Both the position numbers and the translations under genes were made by a program. This document shows, piece by piece, positions 7,523 to 54,990 of a stretch of DNA of 64,000 bases. Source of the stretch: Terriglobia bacterium (GTDB lineage Bacteria > Acidobacteriota > Terriglobia > Bryobacterales > Bryobacteraceae). The DNA lies in NCBI GenBank assembly GCA_020073345.1, contig JAIQFI010000001.1, positions 248,001 to 312,000 on the forward strand, written 5' to 3'. Position 1 is the first letter of the stretch. Each line of letters opens with the position of its first letter. Under the pieces are notes generated by a model. That model was not told where the DNA came from, ran no database searches, and was given only the letters and a program-made list of their open reading frames with translations.

Positions 7523-9904
7523 ATGCGATACTTATTCCTCACCGTCGGTGGCATTCTGGCCGTACTTTCCGCCACTTTCGCCTTCCAGCAGGCCAGCCCG
7601 GCAACGGAACAGCGGGCCATGCTCGACAAATACTGCGTCACCTGCCACAACCAGCGCCTAAAAACCGGCGGCTTGACGCTGGATAACCTGAACCTCGACC
7701 GCATCACAGACAACGCCGAGACCTGGGAGAAAGTTCTGCGCAAGCTACACGGTGGCATGATGCCGCCGCAGGGTATGCCGCGACCCGACGAGGCCACGGT
7801 GAACCAGTTCATGGAGTGGCTCGAAACTTCGCTCGATCGCGCCGCAGCGACCCATCCCGAACCCGGCCGCTCGACCATCCATCGCCTCAATCGCACCGAA
7901 TACGGGAACGCGATCCACGATCTTCTCGACTTGGATATCGATGCCGCCTCGTTCCTGCCCGCCGACGACGAAGCCAACGGATTCGACAACATCGCCGATG
8001 TGTTGCGCTTCTCCCCATCGCTGCTCGAACAATACCTATCCGCATCGGACAAGATCTCGAGCCTGGCTGTCGGCGACCCATCGATCACTCCCATCAGCCT
8101 GGTGTTTCAGGCTCCTCCCGATCTCGACCAGGAACACCACATCGAGGGACTGCCTTTGGGGACGCGTGGCGGAATCCTGGTCCACTACAACTTTCCCCTG
8201 GACGGTGAATACGACTTCCGTGTTTTCCTGCTCCAGAACATCGTCGGATACGTGCCCGGCCTGGAGTATGCGCACCAGCTTGAAATCAGCATCGACGGCC
8301 AGCGCGTGTTTCTGGCGCAGGTGGGCGGCGAGGAAGACAACAAGATGTCCGACGCCAACCTGGGCGTCGCCAAGGACACTCTCGATGCGCGCTTGCGGAC
8401 GCGTATCCCGGTTAAGGCCGGACCGCGAAGCGTCGTCGTGACGTTTCTCCGCCGCAACTCCGCGCCCTCCGACGAGCCTTTGCAGCCGTTCACTCGCGAC
8501 CACGATCTGCAGAACATGAATGGCATCCCGCGGATCGACCGCATGCAGATCACCGGACCGTTCAATGCCACCGGCCCCGGCGATACGCCCAGCCGCCATC
8601 GTATTTTTTCCTGCCGTCCAGCGAACGCCGCTGCCGAACTCCCTTGCGCCCGCGCGATCCTGACCAACCTTGCGCGCCGGGCCTATCGACGGCCGGTGAC
8701 AGGCGCCGATCTTGAAAACCTGCTCAGCTTCTACCAATCCGCGCGCAACAAGAAGAATTTCGACGCGGGGATCGAAACGGCTCTGCGGCTGATTCTGACG
8801 AATCCGAAGTTCCTGTTCCGCATGGAAACCGATCCGGCGGGTGCCGCGCCCGGCTCGATGCATCCGGTCAGCGACCTGGAACTCGCGTCTCGCCTTTCGT
8901 TCTTCCTGTGGAGCACGATTCCCGACGATCAACTCATCACCATCGCCTCGCAAGGAAAGCTCAGAGATCCGGCGATCCTGGAACAGCAAGTCAAGCGCAT
9001 GCTCGCAGACGACCGTTCCGAAGCACTGGTGAAAAACTTTGCCGGGCAGTGGCTGCTGCTGCGCAATCTGCCGAACGTGCTACCGGACCCAAACGAATTC
9101 CCGAATTTCGACGACAACCTGCGGCAGGCGTTCCGGCGCGAGACCGAAATGCTCTTCGAGAGCATCATGCGCGAAGATCGCAACGTGGTCGACCTGCTCA
9201 CCGCCGATTACACCTTTGTCAACGAGCGCCTCGCCAAGCATTACGGCATCCCGGGCGTCTACGGCAGCCAATTCCGGAGGGTGAAGCTGGCCAACGAGGA
9301 ACGGCGAGGACTGCTCGGCCAGGGCAGCATCCTGACGGTGACGTCGGAAGCCAACCGGACGTCGCCGGTGAAGCGCGGTAAATTTATCCTGGAAGCAATC
9401 TTGGGGACGCCGCCGCCGGCGCCGCCACCCAACGTCCCGCCGCTCAAGGAAAACGAGGGTGCACAGGCTCTATCGGTACGCGCGCGCCTCGAAGAGCATC
9501 GCAAGAGTCCCGCTTGCTCAGGATGTCACGCCGTGATGGACCCGCTGGGATTTTCGCTCGAGAATTTCGACGGCGTGGGCGAGTGGCGCACCAGGGAGCC
9601 GGGAGGCGCGGTGGATCCGTCCGGCCAGCTTGCCGATGGAACCAAGGTGGACGGTCCGGTTGCGTTGCGCAAGGCGATCCTCAAGCACCCCGAGCAGTTC
9701 GTGCGAACGCTCACCGAGAAAATGCTGACCTACGGTCTGGGCCGGGGCCTCGAGTATTACGACATGCCGACAGTCCGCGGAATCGCCCGGGACGCTGCCC
9801 GCAACGATAACAAGTTCTCAAGCGTCGTGTTGGGGATCGTGAAGAGCACGCCCTTCCAGATGCGCCGGGTGCAGGATGCCCCGGTGACCGCGTCTAGACA
9901 GTAG
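7523..9904 (+). CDS. DUF1592-type (planctomycete cytochrome) secreted protein with two CxxCH motifs
   Basis: A 793-residue exported protein with a signal peptide (about 1-22) and the domain order of the DUF1587/DUF1592/DUF1588/DUF1585 families. The first c-type haem motif is CVTCH (Cys38-His42), followed by the DUF1587 region HRLNRTEYGNAIHDLL. The middle carries a carbohydrate-binding-like insertion and then the DUF1592 core from about residue 390. A second CxxCH, CSGCH (Cys665-His669), sits in the DUF1588 segment, followed by DPLGFSLENFDGVGEWR. These proteins are known mainly from planctomycetes and acidobacteria and have no proven function; electron transfer is inferred from the haem motifs. 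Here it heads a gene run containing the usual companion, a DUF1552 protein. The stop codon lies in a REP-like GTAG hairpin. Confidence 0.92.
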   Translation: MRYLFLTVGGILAVLSATFAFQQASPATEQRAMLDKYCVTCHNQRLKTGGLTLDNLNLDRITDNAETWEKVLRKLHGGMMPPQGMPRPDEATVNQFMEWLETSLDRAAATHPEPGRSTIHRLNRTEYGNAIHDLLDLDIDAASFLPADDEANGFDNIADVLRFSPSLLEQYLSASDKISSLAVGDPSITPISLVFQAPPDLDQEHHIEGLPLGTRGGILVHYNFPLDGEYDFRVFLLQNIVGYVPGLEYAHQLEISIDGQRVFLAQVGGEEDNKMSDANLGVAKDTLDARLRTRIPVKAGPRSVVVTFLRRNSAPSDEPLQPFTRDHDLQNMNGIPRIDRMQITGPFNATGPGDTPSRHRIFSCRPANAAAELPCARAILTNLARRAYRRPVTGADLENLLSFYQSARNKKNFDAGIETALRLILTNPKFLFRMETDPAGAAPGSMHPVSDLELASRLSFFLWSTIPDDQLITIASQGKLRDPAILEQQVKRMLADDRSEALVKNFAGQWLLLRNLPNVLPDPNEFPNFDDNLRQAFRRETEMLFESIMREDRNVVDLLTADYTFVNERLAKHYGIPGVYGSQFRRVKLANEERRGLLGQGSILTVTSEANRTSPVKRGKFILEAILGTPPPAPPPNVPPLKENEGAQALSVRARLEEHRKSPACSGCHAVMDPLGFSLENFDGVGEWRTREPGGAVDPSGQLADGTKVDGPVALRKAILKHPEQFVRTLTEKMLTYGLGRGLEYYDMPTVRGIARDAARNDNKFSSVVLGIVKSTPFQMRRVQDAPVTASRQ

Positions 9905-9924
9905 GTCCGGCCTCCAGGCCGGAC
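9901..9924 (+). repeat. REP-like element: GTAG foot plus perfect hairpin
   Basis: GTAG (9901-9904) is followed immediately by a perfect 8-bp stem with a TCCA loop (arms 9905-9912 and 9917-9924). The stop codon TAG of the upstream gene is part of the GTAG foot. GTAG at the 5' foot of a hairpin is the known layout of REP elements processed by RAYT (TnpA-REP) transposases. There is no T-run after the stem, so a Rho-independent terminator is less likely. Confidence 0.55.
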
Positions 9925-49767: not shown

Positions 49768-52239
49768 ATGAGTCCCATGAGGGTGCTTAAACATGTCTTC
49801 AGACGGTTCGGGCTGGCCCCGACGTTTACCGCCATCGCTCTGGTGACGCTGGCGCTCGGTATCGGCGCCAATACGGCTATCTTCAGCGTCATCAACGGGG
49901 TGCTGATCAAGCCCTTACCGTTTCCACGAGCCCAGGATTTAGTGGCGGTTGGGCACCTGGCGCCTGGAATCCCGTCCATCGGAGGAACCCTGAACTGCTC
50001 GCCCACGATGTACTTCACCTATCGCGAGGAGAACCAGACCTTTCAGGACTTTGGGCTCTGGTCGAATGGCGGAGGGACGATCACGGGCGTGGGTGATCCG
50101 GAAGCGCTACGGGCCATCGTGGTCACCGACGGCGTGCTGGAAGCCTTGGGCGTGCAACCGGCCGTCGGACGTTGGTTCTCCCGCGCCGACGACACTCCCG
50201 GAGCGCCCGATACCATGATGCTGATGTATGGGTATTGGCAGCGACGCTTCGGAGGAGATAAGTCCGTGGTCGGACGCGCCTTCAATCTCGATTCGAAGCC
50301 GCGCACCGTAATCGGGATCATGCCGCAGGACTTCCAGTTCCTGAACAACACCGCCGAGCTGATCTTGCCGCAGCAATTCGACCGCAACAAGGTCTTTCTA
50401 GGTCAGTTCGGCTTCCAGGGCATCGCACGACTGAAACCCGGAGTGACGCTGCAGCAGGCCAATACCGACGTCGGGCGCATGCTGGGCATGTGGCTAAAAG
50501 CGTGGCCCACGCCGCCCGGATTCGATCGGGCCCTGTTTGAGAATGCGCGCCTTGGTCCTGATCTCAAGCCACTGAAGCAGCAAGTGGTAGGCGATATCGG
50601 GACAGTGCTGTGGGTGCTGATGGGAACCATCGGACTGGTGCTGTTGATCGCCTGCGCGAACGTCGCGAATCTGTTGCTGGTGCGCGCCGAAGGCCGCCAG
50701 CAGGAACTGGCGATCCGGGCAGCTCTCGGCGCAGGCTGGGGAAGAATCGCGCGCGAAATGCTGATCGAGAGCCTGACCCTTGGAATCATGGGCGGCTTGC
50801 TGGGCTTGGGGCTGGCGTACGCTGCCGTCCGGATCCTGGTCGCCAAAGGACCCGCGACACTGCCGCGTCTGACCGAGATTGCGATCGATCCGCTGGTATT
50901 GGCATTCACCCTGTCGGTGTCGATGTTCGCTGGCCTGCTGTTCGGCTTGATTCCGGTGCTGAAATACGCGGGACCACACTTGGCCACCGCCTTGCGCGCC
51001 GGCGGTCGCACGTTGAGCCAGAGCCGCGAGCGGCATCGCGCCCGCAACACGCTCGTGGTGGTACAGGTGGCGTTGGCGCTGGTCCTGCTGATCGGTTCCG
51101 GCCTGATGATTCGGACGTTTCAGGCTCTCCGGAACGTTCAGCCCGGATTCACGCATCCCGAAGAACTGCAGCTGCTGCGCATTTTGGTTTCCGAAGGGCA
51201 GGTGAAAGAGCCGGAACAGGTGATGCGCATGCAGAACGCGATGCTGGATAAGCTGGCGGCGATTCCGGGAGTGACATCGGTCGCCTTGGCAGGCGACGCT
51301 CCGCTCGAAGGATTCTCCAACAATGATGTCCTGTTTGCTGAAGATAAGACTTACGCCGTCGGGCAGATCCCGCCCGTCCGCCGCTATCGGTCTGTCACGC
51401 CGGGATTCTTCAAGACCACCGGCACGCCCCTGATCGCAGGGCGCGATTTCACGTGGACCGACCTCTACGACCGGCGTCGCGTAGCGATGGTTTCTGAGAA
51501 TCTGGCACGCGAAATGTGGGGCGACCCGAGCGCGGCTCTGGGGAAACGGATTCGGGAAGGCGCGGCCGATCCATGGAGCGAGATTGTCGGTGTAGTCGGC
51601 GACATTTACGACGACGGCGCGCAGAAACAGCCGCCGGCTTTCGCGTACTGGCCTGCCCTGATGAACGGCCTCTACGGACCACAGGATCGCGTCATGCGCT
51701 TCGCCGTATTCATGATTCGCACCAGGCGTGCGACCACCGAAGGCTTTCTGACCGAGGCCCGGCAGGCGATCTGGTCGGTCAACTCCAGCTTGCCGGTTTT
51801 CGCTGTAAGGACGCTGCAGGATCTCTACGACCAGTCCATGGCCCGGACATCCTTCACGCTGGTGCTGCTGGCCATCGCCGGCGCGATGGCGCTGGTGCTG
51901 GGCATCGTGGGGATTTACGGCGTGATCGCGTATGCCGTGACCCAGCGGACGCGAGAGATCGGCATCCGCATGGCGCTCGGCGCGCAGGCCGCGGGACTCC
52001 GCCAAATGTTCGTGCGCCAAGGGCTGCTGCTGGCCGGGATCGGCGCTGTTATTGGGATGGCCGCGGCCGCCGGACTGACGCGCTTGATGTCATCCCTGCT
52101 GTTCGGGGTCACGGCTCTCGACCCGCTTACGTACGCAAGCGTCGCGGCGATTCTGATCGCGGCGGCGGTGCTGGCGAGTTACTTTCCCGCGCGGAGGGCC
52201 ACCCGGGTCGATCCTCTGGACGCGCTGCGCGCCGAGTAG
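49768..52239 (+). CDS. MacB/FtsX-type ABC permease without ATPase (acidobacterial orphan permease)
   Basis: An 823-residue permease. A first membrane helix (FTAIALVTLALGIGANTAIFSVINGVLIKPLPF) is followed by a periplasmic MacB-PCD domain, a block of three FtsX helices (about 275-400), a second MacB-PCD domain (about 430-670) and a second FtsX block near the C-terminus (LAIAGAMALVLGIVGIYGVIAYAVTQRTREIGIRMALGA). This duplicated design, with no nucleotide-binding domain, is the ADOP family abundant in acidobacteria. Transport or mechanotransmission is presumed. It is divergent from the PilZ gene and is followed by a GGACAG repeat pair. Confidence 0.9.
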   Translation: MSPMRVLKHVFRRFGLAPTFTAIALVTLALGIGANTAIFSVINGVLIKPLPFPRAQDLVAVGHLAPGIPSIGGTLNCSPTMYFTYREENQTFQDFGLWSNGGGTITGVGDPEALRAIVVTDGVLEALGVQPAVGRWFSRADDTPGAPDTMMLMYGYWQRRFGGDKSVVGRAFNLDSKPRTVIGIMPQDFQFLNNTAELILPQQFDRNKVFLGQFGFQGIARLKPGVTLQQANTDVGRMLGMWLKAWPTPPGFDRALFENARLGPDLKPLKQQVVGDIGTVLWVLMGTIGLVLLIACANVANLLLVRAEGRQQELAIRAALGAGWGRIAREMLIESLTLGIMGGLLGLGLAYAAVRILVAKGPATLPRLTEIAIDPLVLAFTLSVSMFAGLLFGLIPVLKYAGPHLATALRAGGRTLSQSRERHRARNTLVVVQVALALVLLIGSGLMIRTFQALRNVQPGFTHPEELQLLRILVSEGQVKEPEQVMRMQNAMLDKLAAIPGVTSVALAGDAPLEGFSNNDVLFAEDKTYAVGQIPPVRRYRSVTPGFFKTTGTPLIAGRDFTWTDLYDRRRVAMVSENLAREMWGDPSAALGKRIREGAADPWSEIVGVVGDIYDDGAQKQPPAFAYWPALMNGLYGPQDRVMRFAVFMIRTRRATTEGFLTEARQAIWSVNSSLPVFAVRTLQDLYDQSMARTSFTLVLLAIAGAMALVLGIVGIYGVIAYAVTQRTREIGIRMALGAQAAGLRQMFVRQGLLLAGIGAVIGMAAAAGLTRLMSSLLFGVTALDPLTYASVAAILIAAAVLASYFPARRATRVDPLDALRAE

Positions 52240-52247
52240 GGCCGGGT

Positions 52248-52338
52248 AAAAAGGGACAGGCTACTCTGTCCACTCCCCCGATTGTGCGTCAAAACCGGAG
52301 TAATTCGGGAGGGGACAGAGCTGCCTGTCCCCTTTCTT
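52248..52338. repeat. REPIN-like pair of GGACAG hairpins
   Basis: Two hairpins lie in opposite orientation, 40 bases apart: GGACAG-GCTACT-CTGTCC (52254-52271) and GGGGACAG-AGCTGC-CTGTCCCC (52311-52332, followed by TTTCTT). The second is nearly the reverse complement of the first including flanking AAAGGG/CCCTTT. Inverted REP pairs of this kind are called REPINs. The right-hand hairpin might also terminate transcription. Confidence 0.62.
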
Positions 52339-52350
52339 ACGAGCAGAATA

Positions 52351-52374
52351 GGTCCGGGCTCAGCCCGGCCGCTA
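52351..52374 (-). repeat. REP-like element at kinase stop codon
   Basis: Read on the minus strand, GTAG is followed by C and a hairpin with arms CCGGGCT/AGCCCGG plus flanking G-C pairs. The kinase stop codon TAG is contained in GTAG. The plus-strand copy begins TAGGTCCGG, like the element at 9901. Confidence 0.55.
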
Positions 52375-54990
52375 CTTCGTCACCGACTTCTGCCAGTTGG
52401 TGATCACGTTGACGGTAGGCTCGCCCGTTTCCCCCAGCACGTTCACCAGAAACCGCCGCCGGTCCGGATGAGGGCTGTAAGAGAAAGTATTACCCTGCGG
52501 AACGTAGGGAAGCACGCGGGCGTCAAACAGCTTTTGGGGTGACCCGATCCGCAAACCGCCGCGACCATCGGCATCCACCGTCGCAGCCATCAACGTCGTT
52601 CGCCCCGCAAGACCGGCGTTGCTGAAATACAATTCCTTGCCGTCCGAGCGCCAGCGCGGCTCGCGGCCTGCGTCCGCGGAAACCTTCCACACTTGCGAGC
52701 CGGACGGGAACGGGCGGACATACACCTCGCCTTTTCCCGACTCGTCCGAATAGTAGGCGAGCCACTTCCCGTCCGGTGAAAGCTGGCCCTGACTCTCGAC
52801 CGCGTCGGTGCCCAACAGCTTCACCGCCGCTTTCTCATCCAGTTTTCCGGATTCCACGGGAGCGTACCAAATGTCCGCCCGCGTTTTCGGATTGTTCTCG
52901 GTATAAATCACGAATCGCCCGTCGCGGGACCAGTCCGACCGCGTTCTGGCCGGGGCCGCGAGATCGATCTTCTGCACGATTTGCAGCTGGCCCCCCTTCA
53001 GGTCTTTCTGATAGATGCTGAGCCCCTCCGGCCCTGTCATACTAAACCAGACCAGACTGCTGTCTGGCGCCCACAAGGCGGCGCCACCACCTTGCGATGC
53101 GGGAGGCGTCAAACGGCTCTCCGATTCGCGCACCAAATCATGCAGCCACACGGCCATGGAGCCACCCTCGTCCCGGCGCCTGGTCGCTACGGTATTCCCA
53201 TCCGGCGAAAGTACCACTCCTTGTTGCTCCGACTGCGGACCCACTTTGCCCAATTCCTTGCCGGTCCGGTCAAACCACGTAAGCTGGGCCTCGCGGGAAC
53301 GTCCGGCCAGATATACCAGCGTCCCATCCGCGGCAGCCGAAGCTGCCACTTGTGGAGGACTCGACGAGTAGGACGCCCCAGTGACCACAGAGATTGGATC
53401 GCCCACCGGCTGAAGGCTCCCTTCATCGAACGGTTGCGCCATGAGGGCGTTCTCTCGCAGAAACAGCACGTGCGCTCGCCCCCCCGCGCTTGCCGGCGGC
53501 GTATAGACCACGCTGGAAATGTCCGACAGAATTCTGCGGCCAGTGGGTTCGCCCAGCGTAGCTAAGTAAACGCCCTGAATAGCCTGATCACCGACCGTCT
53601 TTACGTAGAAAAAATGACTCCCATCCGGCATAAACGTGGGCTTCGAGGCGCGGTTGTTGGGATCGTCCTTGCCGACAACCATGCACTGCCCACCCTTGTT
53701 GGCATCCACGCGCCGGAGGTGCCCGTTCTCACTCCCGAAAAGAATGACTCCGTCGCGATTCCAGGTGCCTCCGCTCCCCAGCCCCGTCTCCCCGCACAGT
53801 ACCTGTGCAGGCCCGCCCGCCGCCGGAATCACCTTGAGCTTGGACTCGGCAAAAAATCCGATAAAGCGGCTATCCGGAGACCAGAACGGCATCCGGGCGA
53901 AGCTCGTACCTGGCAGCGGCTGGAGTTCCCCGGAATCGAGCGTCCGAAGATAGAGCTGGGCAGTCCCTTCACGATTCAATAACAGCAGCACGCGCCGCCC
54001 GTCCGGGGACAGCTCCAGGAAACCGGCCGAACTGTTTTCCGGCAATGGAATCGACAGTCTCAGGGACCGTTCCGCCGCGGGCGCTTCGCGGAAATGCACG
54101 AATCCAAGTCTCGCCGCCAGCAGCACCGCAACGCCCGCCACCACCCAGGCAACTCCGCCGACCAGCCCCGACGGTGACGGCGGGGGCTCTGCGGCATCCA
54201 ACACGAGCCGCATATCCCCGATCGCTTGCAACCGCTTCTTCGGATCTTTCCGCAAGCATTCTTCGAGCAGTCTCCGAACGCGCTGCGGGACCGCGCTTAA
54301 GTCCGGGTGCTCCTTCACCACGCTCGCCAGGGTGTCCGTGAGGTCTTCACCCTTGAACAGCCGCTGGCCGGTGATCAGTTCATACAGGACCACGCCGAAA
54401 GCCCAGATATCGGCACGAGCATCCACGCGTTTTCCCCGGGCTTGCTCGGGAGCCATATAAGCGGCTGTACCCAGGATCACCCCCGCCTGCGTCGCGGCCA
54501 TGCTCAGCGTGGGCGATTGGGTAGCGCCTGCCTCCAGGCCGGCCGACGTGGACGTCGGCCCTACTTTTGCCAGGCCGAAATCCAGCACCTTGACCGTTCC
54601 ATCCGGCTTGATCTTGATGTTGGCGGGCTTGAGATCCCGATGGACGACACCTTTTTCGTGCGCTTCGCCCAGCGCCTCCGCGATCTGCCGCGCGATTCCC
54701 ATCGCCTCGTCTATGGGCATGGGACCGGTCGGGGACTCGCCATCGATCAACTCCATGACCAGGTAATTCGGGCCGACGTCGTAGATCGCGCAAATATTGG
54801 GATGATTTAGCGCCGCGACGGCGTGCGCCTCGCGCTCGAATCGTTCACTGAACCGCTCGGCGGAAACTTTGATGGCAACATCTCGCCGCAGGCGAGGGTC
54901 ATGCGCCCGATACACCTCGCCCATCCCGCCCTTGCCGATCAGCGCGATGATCTCGTACGGCCCGAGCTTGTCACCCGCCGTGAGTGCCAT
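52372..54990 (-). CDS. Ser/Thr protein kinase fused to PD40 propeller
   Basis: An 872-residue membrane kinase of the PknB/Hanks type. The catalytic domain (about 12-275) has GKGGMGEVYRAH, Lys41 in VAIKV, HRDLKPANIK (Asp119), DFGLAK (Asp137) and APEQARGK. A single transmembrane helix lies near residues 281-300 (WVVAGVAVLLAARLGFVHF). The C-terminal 560 residues form an extracytoplasmic PD40 propeller with SPDG motifs. It presumably phosphorylates cytoplasmic proteins in response to a periplasmic signal. Residues V143-T157, in the activation segment, are encoded by an in-frame inverted REP pair. The ATG at 54990 is divergent from the DinB-like gene. Confidence 0.92.
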   Translation of the reverse strand: MALTAGDKLGPYEIIALIGKGGMGEVYRAHDPRLRRDVAIKVSAERFSERFEREAHAVAALNHPNICAIYDVGPNYLVMELIDGESPTGPMPIDEAMGIARQIAEALGEAHEKGVVHRDLKPANIKIKPDGTVKVLDFGLAKVGPTSTSAGLEAGATQSPTLSMAATQAGVILGTAAYMAPEQARGKRVDARADIWAFGVVLYELITGQRLFKGEDLTDTLASVVKEHPDLSAVPQRVRRLLEECLRKDPKKRLQAIGDMRLVLDAAEPPPSPSGLVGGVAWVVAGVAVLLAARLGFVHFREAPAAERSLRLSIPLPENSSAGFLELSPDGRRVLLLLNREGTAQLYLRTLDSGELQPLPGTSFARMPFWSPDSRFIGFFAESKLKVIPAAGGPAQVLCGETGLGSGGTWNRDGVILFGSENGHLRRVDANKGGQCMVVGKDDPNNRASKPTFMPDGSHFFYVKTVGDQAIQGVYLATLGEPTGRRILSDISSVVYTPPASAGGRAHVLFLRENALMAQPFDEGSLQPVGDPISVVTGASYSSSPPQVAASAAADGTLVYLAGRSREAQLTWFDRTGKELGKVGPQSEQQGVVLSPDGNTVATRRRDEGGSMAVWLHDLVRESESRLTPPASQGGGAALWAPDSSLVWFSMTGPEGLSIYQKDLKGGQLQIVQKIDLAAPARTRSDWSRDGRFVIYTENNPKTRADIWYAPVESGKLDEKAAVKLLGTDAVESQGQLSPDGKWLAYYSDESGKGEVYVRPFPSGSQVWKVSADAGREPRWRSDGKELYFSNAGLAGRTTLMAATVDADGRGGLRIGSPQKLFDARVLPYVPQGNTFSYSPHPDRRRFLVNVLGETGEPTVNVITNWQKSVTK
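54521..54564. repeat. REPIN-like element in frame inside kinase gene
   Basis: On the plus strand GTAG (54521-54524) and C are followed by hairpin GCCTG-CCTC-CAGGC (54526-54539). On the minus strand GTAG (54564-54561) is followed immediately by a perfect 9-bp-arm hairpin (54541-54560, centre GG). The element therefore has GTAG at both outer ends and two hairpins, the known REPIN design. It encodes kinase residues V143-T157. Confidence 0.68.

Follow-up and report, generated by a model that had tools for sequence, protein, structure and literature searches.

Inverted GTAG-type hairpins in the activation loop of an Acidobacteriota protein kinase and repeat-filled loops among its relatives

The kinase gene and its in-frame hairpin pair

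The stretch analysed here, called the window, comprises 64,000 nt from a Terriglobia bacterium (contig JAIQFI010000001.1, positions 248,001 to 312,000). On its minus strand, at 52372–54990, it encodes a Hanks-type Ser/Thr kinase of 872 amino acids with a PD40 beta-propeller repeat in the C-terminal part (Pkinase, 1.1e-43; PD40, 3.2e-14). The protein has a kinase domain with the catalytic lysine K41 and the HRD, DFG, and APE motifs, and its best PDB matches by sequence are to PknB. The activation segment, from DFG (residues 137–139) to APE (residues 180–182), is encoded on the minus strand at 54445–54582. Within it, in frame, lies the subject of this report, a 44-nt element at 54521–54564 composed of two GTAG-tagged hairpins arranged head-out (GTAG-hairpin-hairpin-CTAC). 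The pair as a whole is assigned to neither strand and codes for residues 143–157 when read on the minus strand.

The right arm (54541–54564, minus strand) has the sequence GTAGGGCCGACGTCCACGTCGGCC, and its stem is a perfect 9-bp palindrome around a 2-nt centre (GGCCGACGT/GG/ACGTCGGCC). The left arm (54521–54544, plus strand) is GTAGCGCCTGCCTCCAGGCCGGCC, its stem contains one mismatch, and the two hairpins overlap by 4 bases (GGCC). The coding strand directly 3' of the DFGLAK codons thus reads GTAGGGCCGACGTCCACGTCGGCC GGCCTGGAGGCAGGCGCTAC, with tails sharing those 4 bases; the 44-mer extends from V143 to the second base of the T157 codon, and QSPTLSMAATQAGVILGTAAY separates it from MAPEQ. An earlier note on this DNA had described the GTAG at both outer ends with hairpins just inside, the right-hand palindrome around its GG centre, and the translation as V143–T157 between DFGLAK and APEQ, and all these observations are confirmed in the window sequence. 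As a single strand the 44-mer folds with −14.5 kcal/mol, as against −7.79 (sd 1.97) for dinucleotide shuffles (z −3.4), and better than 200 of 200 such shuffles. The spacing of the tags was dropped as evidence in itself: GTAG...CTAC with a gap of 10–40 occurs seven times in the window, where 5.15 are expected, and 27 of 100 shuffles reach seven. The significance of the element derives from its match to a REP (repetitive extragenic palindromic) family and from its position. The window contains five perfect hairpins (stem of at least 9 bp, loop of 2–6 nt), two of them GTAG-tagged, that of the element and one at 9901–9924.

The activation loop of the kinase is predicted to be disordered. In an AlphaFold2 model based on 35 sequences the mean pLDDT (predicted local distance difference test) is 87.4, and residues 145–171 fall below 50 while the surrounding domain is mostly above 90. 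In the alignment to PknB, whose loop is shorter at this place, most residues of the element face gaps at the tip of the loop, ahead of the aligned TQ; the two proteins, like other Hanks-type kinases, share HRD, DFG, and PEQ and a TQ preceding GTA.Y.(A/S)PEQ. By analogy with PknB, the threonine of this TQ is probably the phosphorylated T-loop residue. Just after the element lies a conserved S159-P160-T161 (54508–54516, minus strand). T161 of this SPT motif is invariant in the 35-sequence alignment, and S159, P160, and T167 (in ATQAG) are nearly so. The suggestion of the earlier note that autophosphorylation sites may be altered holds insofar as the element lies in the activation segment and adds Thr and Ser residues, but T161 and T167 are located outside it and are intact. 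For the window gene as a whole, the ratio of nonsynonymous to synonymous substitution rates (dN/dS, Nei–Gojobori) is 0.155, and it is 0.090 when only the kinase domain is taken and its loop left out, indicating that the kinase gene is under purifying selection.

Dispersed relatives of the two arms

Both arms fit a GTAG/GTGG REP family of the genome that carries them. The pattern GTRGGGCNNNNNTCCANNNNNGCC, matched by the right arm with no mismatch and by the left arm with one, is found with at most one mismatch at 35 places in the 6.23-Mb genome, a number that includes both arms of the element, a copy at C83, and some matches that plainly form no hairpin, while the reversed-pattern control gives 6. 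Seven places match without a mismatch, and two of these are kinase loops. The left arm, whose consensus form is GTAGGGCCGGCC..., shares 22 of 24 bases with the genomic copy at C19:149867. Stems within the family vary but stay paired (CCGACGT/ACGTCGG, CAGACGT/ACGTCTG, CCGGCCT/AGGCCGG). Among the 30 of the 35 places examined, three other inverted head-out pairs were found, C15:148009/148088, C51:244536/244604, and C51:247719/247788, with GTGG heads and 69–80 nt between arm starts. Each consists of one ...CGTCCACG... arm and one ...CTCCAG... arm, the same combination as in the kinase element.

Each arm thus has GTAG or GTRG at the end of a stem-loop and belongs to a multi-copy dispersed family. 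The GTAG REPs of PMC3733652 resemble the element in the GTAG tag, the stem of 6–13 bp, the mostly very short loop, and the occurrence of opposite-orientation dimers and heterodimers; singles and dimers are likewise read inside open reading frames (ORFs), and GTAG often gives TAG stops to neighbouring ORFs. REPs of this type are mostly extragenic, and the element lies inside a gene, but the published intragenic exceptions mean that this does not exclude it from the family. In 2013 GTAG REPs, dimers and groups of 20–30 amino acids among them, were reported from within ORFs, many of them in replication and repair genes, and the authors considered that such insertions may be neutral in flexible linkers or loops (PMC3733652).

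The earlier note had regarded the element as a REPIN (REP doublet forming a hairpin), a mobile unit served by a RAYT (REP-associated tyrosine transposase). The full 44-mer has no second copy in its own genome, only the arms being multi-copy; the element is therefore named REPIN-like rather than REPIN. A search for a RAYT gene in this genome, which is 97.5% complete, found one Y1 transposase (a Y1_Tnp match), flanked by GGGACAGACGACATT and AATGTCGTCTGTCCC and, by the criteria used here, with no GTAG or GTGG hairpin within 1.5 kb; a RAYT as the local source is not supported. In comparison with the REPINs of RAYT/TnpA-REP systems (PMC3116915, PMC8266576), the element has the same two inverted GTAG hairpins at its outer ends but differs in that these stand back-to-back with a 4-nt overlap, form a single-copy 44-nt unit, and are accompanied by no GTAG-flanked transposase found in the genome.

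The simple insertion first proposed does not hold. The closest orthologue found, that of G019 from the same genus, is 82% identical over the whole protein; its loop reads IGGGPVVPSED, 11 unrelated codons in place of 16 in the window, without a REP-like hairpin, and codons on both sides align. REP arms do lie in the activation segment and the residues of the element are not present in G019, but its site is occupied by other codons, so that a clean insertion of 15 residues, as implied by the earlier note, is ruled out. The difference amounts to a replaced loop, longer on balance by five codons, and a lossless 44-nt insertion does not fit.

Repeat-filled activation loops in the phylum

Other Acidobacteriota have different REPs, specific to their genomes, in this loop. 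A long-loop pattern matched 47 of 396 Acidobacteriota genomes, the window's own included, and many of the long loops, among those listed, carry DNA resembling dispersed repeats. Five genomes (G413, G176, G359, G344, and G167) were picked from this list since repeats showed there; stretches over kinase matches listed at E of at most 1e-50 (118 tallied) yielded 109 parsed loops. By eye, a REP-type hairpin is present in 15 of the 109 (6/18 in G167, 4/28 in G176, 3/28 in G413, 1/32 in G344, and 1/3 in G359). One loop of G176, which belongs to another class of the phylum, carries GTAGGGCGGGACTTTAGTCCCGCC GGAGC CGGGTCTGAAGACCCGGCCTAC (L384, also L267), a head-out GTAG pair with unlike stems and hence of the same build as the window element.

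Three patterns were drawn from kinase loops, so that loop places match them best by construction, and it is the remaining places that carry weight. The GGGCGGNACTTNAGTNCCGCC family, at up to two mismatches and with palindromes counted on both strands, gives 68 strand-hits in G413, 34 in G176, 52 in G359, 112 in G344, and 35 in G167, with controls of 0 in the first four and 3 in G167; there are 2 in the window's own genome (control 0), and the single match in G367 (control 1) lends no support. A second family, GGGCGATGRCTTNRGCCGTCGCC, gives 30 in G167, 32 in G413, 5 in G344, 2 in G359, and none in G176 or the window's own genome, with all controls at 0. Kinase loops account for 6 of the 14 mismatch-free places of this degenerate pattern in G167, two pairs of these cases sharing long exact tracts and thus not being independent. 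In G001, a member of the window's genus, the GTAG hairpin GTAGGTCAGGCGNTTCCGCCTGACNC occurs with up to three mismatches at 21 places, whereas the other genomes searched, five in number, and the control give 0. Three of the 21 places are kinase loops, in which the hairpin follows the same Lys codon and begins, as in the window, with the same Val codon. Several kinase loops contain non-palindromic, G-rich direct repeats (GGGATCAGGGATC, GGGAGTCGGGAACC, GACTCAGGACCC).

The repeats differ between orthologues. G413_L324 and G167_L373 are mutual best matches, 84% identical over 914 amino acids with the loops masked, and the loop of one holds a GGGACTTTAGTCCCGCC hairpin while that of the other belongs to the GGGCGATGGC family; in the 72% identical pair G413_L318 and G344_L342, a REP-like sequence faces a GGGATCAGGGATC repeat. 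Paralogues that are 41–51% identical share a repeat loop within a genome, namely three in G413, two pairs in G167, and one pair in G344.

A set of 295 distinct kinases, that of the window among them, served to compare hairpin density between the loop and the remainder of the gene. The sample comprises 162 kinases from the window's own genome, its relatives, and similarity search, 29 picked for long loops (L207–L236), and 104 of the five genomes; for L180/L185 and L194/L203 hairpins were counted within the retrieved loci only. Perfect hairpins (stem of at least 9 bp, loop of 2–6 nt) number 14 in 27.2 kb of loop (0.515/kb) as against 63 in 691 kb elsewhere (0.091/kb; 0.057–0.158/kb by region), and codon-shuffled loops give 0.94. 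Without the window kinase the counts are 13 and 63. The 162 kinases, picked neither by loop nor for a REP-rich genome, show 7 in the loop (0.473/kb) versus 38 (0.100/kb), and the 104 show 7 (0.740/kb) versus 23 (0.091/kb). GTAG-tagged hairpins with a stem of at least 7 bp are about 11 times denser in the loop, with 8 in 29.0 kb (from six kinases) versus 17 in 684 kb (7 versus 17 without the window; 5 versus 7 in the 162; 3 versus 10 in the five genomes), while 200 codon shuffles of the loops give 0.055, at most 1. For GGAG-tagged hairpins the ratio is 9 to 25; CTAC-, GATG-, and GCAG-tagged ones are absent from the loops of the 295 kinases. By rough gene calls, non-coding DNA has 0.22 and 0.36 hairpins per kb at kinase loci and 0.69/kb in the window (2 in 2.9 kb), and coding DNA 0.05–0.12/kb. 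The loop thus has a hairpin content like that of non-coding DNA, and the rest of the kinase gene is protected.

The kinase L080 (G039:C391) has in its activation loop a perfect 16-bp stem with a 5-nt loop (KALECEASQADASHSPT). Hairpins are also found at gene ends. At 9901–9924 (plus strand) of the window lies a GTAG hairpin of the element's kind, whose GTAG supplies the TAG stop of a 793-amino-acid ORF at 7523–9904. An imperfect GTAG-REP-like hairpin at 52351–52375 (minus strand) similarly provides the TAG stop of the kinase; it is not seen at the stop of the orthologue, where TAG is followed by other sequence. At L007 (C15:91520 of the same genome) a REP extends the C-terminus of a presumably RimO-like ORF by AGLEAGPTARP. 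Downstream of the kinase, at 52236–52340, and at L039 (C59), repeats with a GGGACAG/CTGTCCC core resemble the flanks of the sole Y1 transposase (GGGACAGACGACATT). They may form another repeat family that is linked to the transposase, which might in turn belong to the TIRYTs, i.e., transposases flanked by long terminal inverted repeats, which are the subject of the one mention of Acidobacteria in the accessible portion of PMC3733652.

Explanations and meaning

The best explanation is that the element is a genuine, REPIN-like pair of GTAG REPs situated in frame within the hypervariable portion of the loop, and that it represents one case of a process recurrent in Acidobacteriota; the probability of this reading is put at about 0.7. 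REP hairpins and other local repeats would enter the segment that separates DFGLAK from the conserved SPT motif, and would survive there because this segment is disordered and GTA-GGG... gives an open frame. Later the repeats would be trimmed, and some may be shared between paralogous kinases by recombination. For the window element the entry event was probably an insertion, by a Y1-type transposase or another activity, and trimming may have followed. The right arm has its one near-identical copy in the paralogous C83 kinase at the same codon, and exchange between paralogues could account for this arm as well as new transposition could; the two arms need not have arrived together. The likely effect would be to alter the length of the loop and its Ser/Thr/Gly content directly ahead of the probable T-loop phosphorylation sites, while the catalytic fold would be preserved.

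Several points weigh against this reading. The 44-mer is single-copy, the one Y1 transposase lacks the fitting hairpins, and in the single close orthologue the site is not empty but filled by another loop. Paralogue L014 (C15:84425) encodes VGPT by other codons, so that the origin of the element may be partly non-REP. The earlier note had named the same residues in unrelated codons of orthologues as a finding that would undo its claim; the G019 orthologue does not have these residues, and the L014 paralogue has VGPT. Where the left foot lies (GCN ACY CAA), the paralogues L020 and L096 read ATQSPTLS, and together with the VGPT of L014 this means that the left arm may in part descend from an older loop. 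The 29 kinases picked for long loops have no hairpin with a stem of at least 9 bp in the loop and two elsewhere, so that long loops as such are not REPs, and GTGG-tagged hairpins, with 1 in the loop versus 42 elsewhere, show no enrichment. The choice of the five genomes and the derivation of the three patterns count here too. Finally, in-frame REP-like hairpins occur in other plausible ORFs as well, which means that the kinase loop is not the sole tolerant place. One example is L248 (G344:C2:17729), an 882-amino-acid ORF with an in-frame REP (GGRNFSSA) whose sequence reads like UvrA. The uvrA gene is among the published carriers of REPs (PMC3733652).

It is unlikely, though worth serious consideration, that the repeats have been kept by selection for changed autophosphorylation sites or specificity in the expanded kinase families. 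Such adaptive diversification would suit the different repeats of the 84% identical orthologues, the share of kinase loops among the pattern-exact places of G167, and the Ser/Thr-containing peptides VGPTSTSA, VGRDFSPA, and AGSEDPAY. However, neutral tolerance explains both position and frame, T161 and T167 are not part of the element, the loop density is merely within the non-coding range, and the G167 cases include the two non-independent pairs. Tolerance by a disordered loop is the safer reading of the role of the repeats in the kinase.

It is rather improbable that the right arm alone is a REP, gained by gene conversion from, or passed to, the C83 paralogue, the left arm being an ordinary loop of the ...GAGATQSPTLS kind (L096) with a chance likeness to REPs. 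In the C83 kinase GTAGGGCCGATGTCCACGTCGGCCGG, the right arm only, stands at the same codon and is followed by a GENSPT loop. It is the only near-identical copy of an arm, matching 23 of 24 bases, or 25 of 26 when two more are counted, whereas identity is 76% over the 128 aligned query positions around and including the right arm. The ATQSPTLS of L020 and L096 fits this explanation, and gene conversion is common: exact tracts of at least 40 nt are shared by same-genome pairs of the five genomes 6 times in the loop, 19 times in the N-terminal part, and 3 times in the C-terminal part, as against 0 in the loop and 10 elsewhere for different-genome pairs. At a threshold of 20 nt, same-genome pairs share 16 tracts in the loop and 655 elsewhere, in keeping with the 2.2% of length that the loop makes up. 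Loop-specific sharing between paralogues is thereby weakened as a candidate, and sharing in the N-terminal part too points to general gene conversion or partial duplication with the loop carried along. Against an ordinary left arm stand its match to C19:149867, its head-out position relative to the right arm, in the arrangement and with the arm types of the three genomic pairs, and the codons before ATQ, which are unlike those of both L020 and L096.

Some kinase genes of this genome are interrupted. In L438, L439, and L440 (C40, C83, and C60), related DNA (83–86% identical) cuts the gene immediately behind the PEQ of its APE motif; a tyrosine integrase gene (PF00589, 8.1e-16) lies in this DNA in C83, and a similar ORF in C60. 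At L441–L444 (C36, C51, C93, and C80), the right halves of four other kinases start at ...TCYGARCAGGC or a similar sequence, preceded by DNA that is shared (alignments of 1.3–1.6 kb; 568 nt in C93). This looks like an integrative element that may use the APEQ codons of kinases (core CGARCAG) as its attachment site.

That a Gly/Ala/Ser/Thr-rich, GC-rich hypervariable loop simply drifted into two palindromes is highly improbable. The GC-rich codons, the VGPT of L014 in other codons, and the five 9-bp palindromes of the window, in which a single one is not rare, would allow for chance; the arms, however, match copies elsewhere in the genome, similar cases recur in other lineages, and codon shuffling of the 295 loops yields 0.055 GTAG-tagged hairpins in place of 8. 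A role of the hairpins at the level of nucleic acid, as mRNA structure or in translational pausing, transcription, or supercoiling, with the peptide irrelevant, is scarcely credible, as it leaves unexplained the concentration in one protein loop and the non-palindromic G-rich repeats found there, even though the 44-mer folds stably and many REPs are thought to be RNA elements (PMC3733652).

Among known systems, the palindromic elements of Rickettsia (works of 2000 and 2002 cited in PMC10969869 and PMC3733652) are likewise read in frame in proteins thought functional, but by their description they are of about 150 bp rather than 44 nt, lie in many unrelated genes of another lineage, and, in the accessible portions of those papers, favour no single recurrent loop. 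The GTAG REPs of PMC3733652 differ from the present case, in which one protein loop has different repeats across several Acidobacteriota families; in the accessible portion of that paper "kinase" appears only in a reference title, on repeat excision from a Rickettsia guanylate kinase. Solibacter has been described as having many short repeats and kinase paralogues without sign of positive selection, with no link drawn between the two in the accessible portion of PMC3174227. Among the papers on REPs and intragenic repeats that were searched, none ties REPs to kinases or activation loops. Intragenic REPs being already known, it is the recurrent, repeat-filled activation loop that is the finding of interest.

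A bolder view, doubtful but by no means fanciful, is that the activation loop of the expanded Acidobacteriota kinase family acts as a diversity cassette supplied by selfish DNA, into which each genome's own REPs and other short repeats would be written again and again, to be swapped between species and spread among paralogues, rewiring autophosphorylation and signalling specificity. Most descriptions of in-frame palindromic repeats are of scattered insertions, while in the present case a single regulatory loop of one protein family is hit recurrently across a phylum, and orthologues carry different repeats. The kinases of Acidobacteriota thus offer many natural replicates of selfish DNA turned into protein at a defined, assayable site, so that whether such a repeat is neutral or useful may be tested kinase by kinase.

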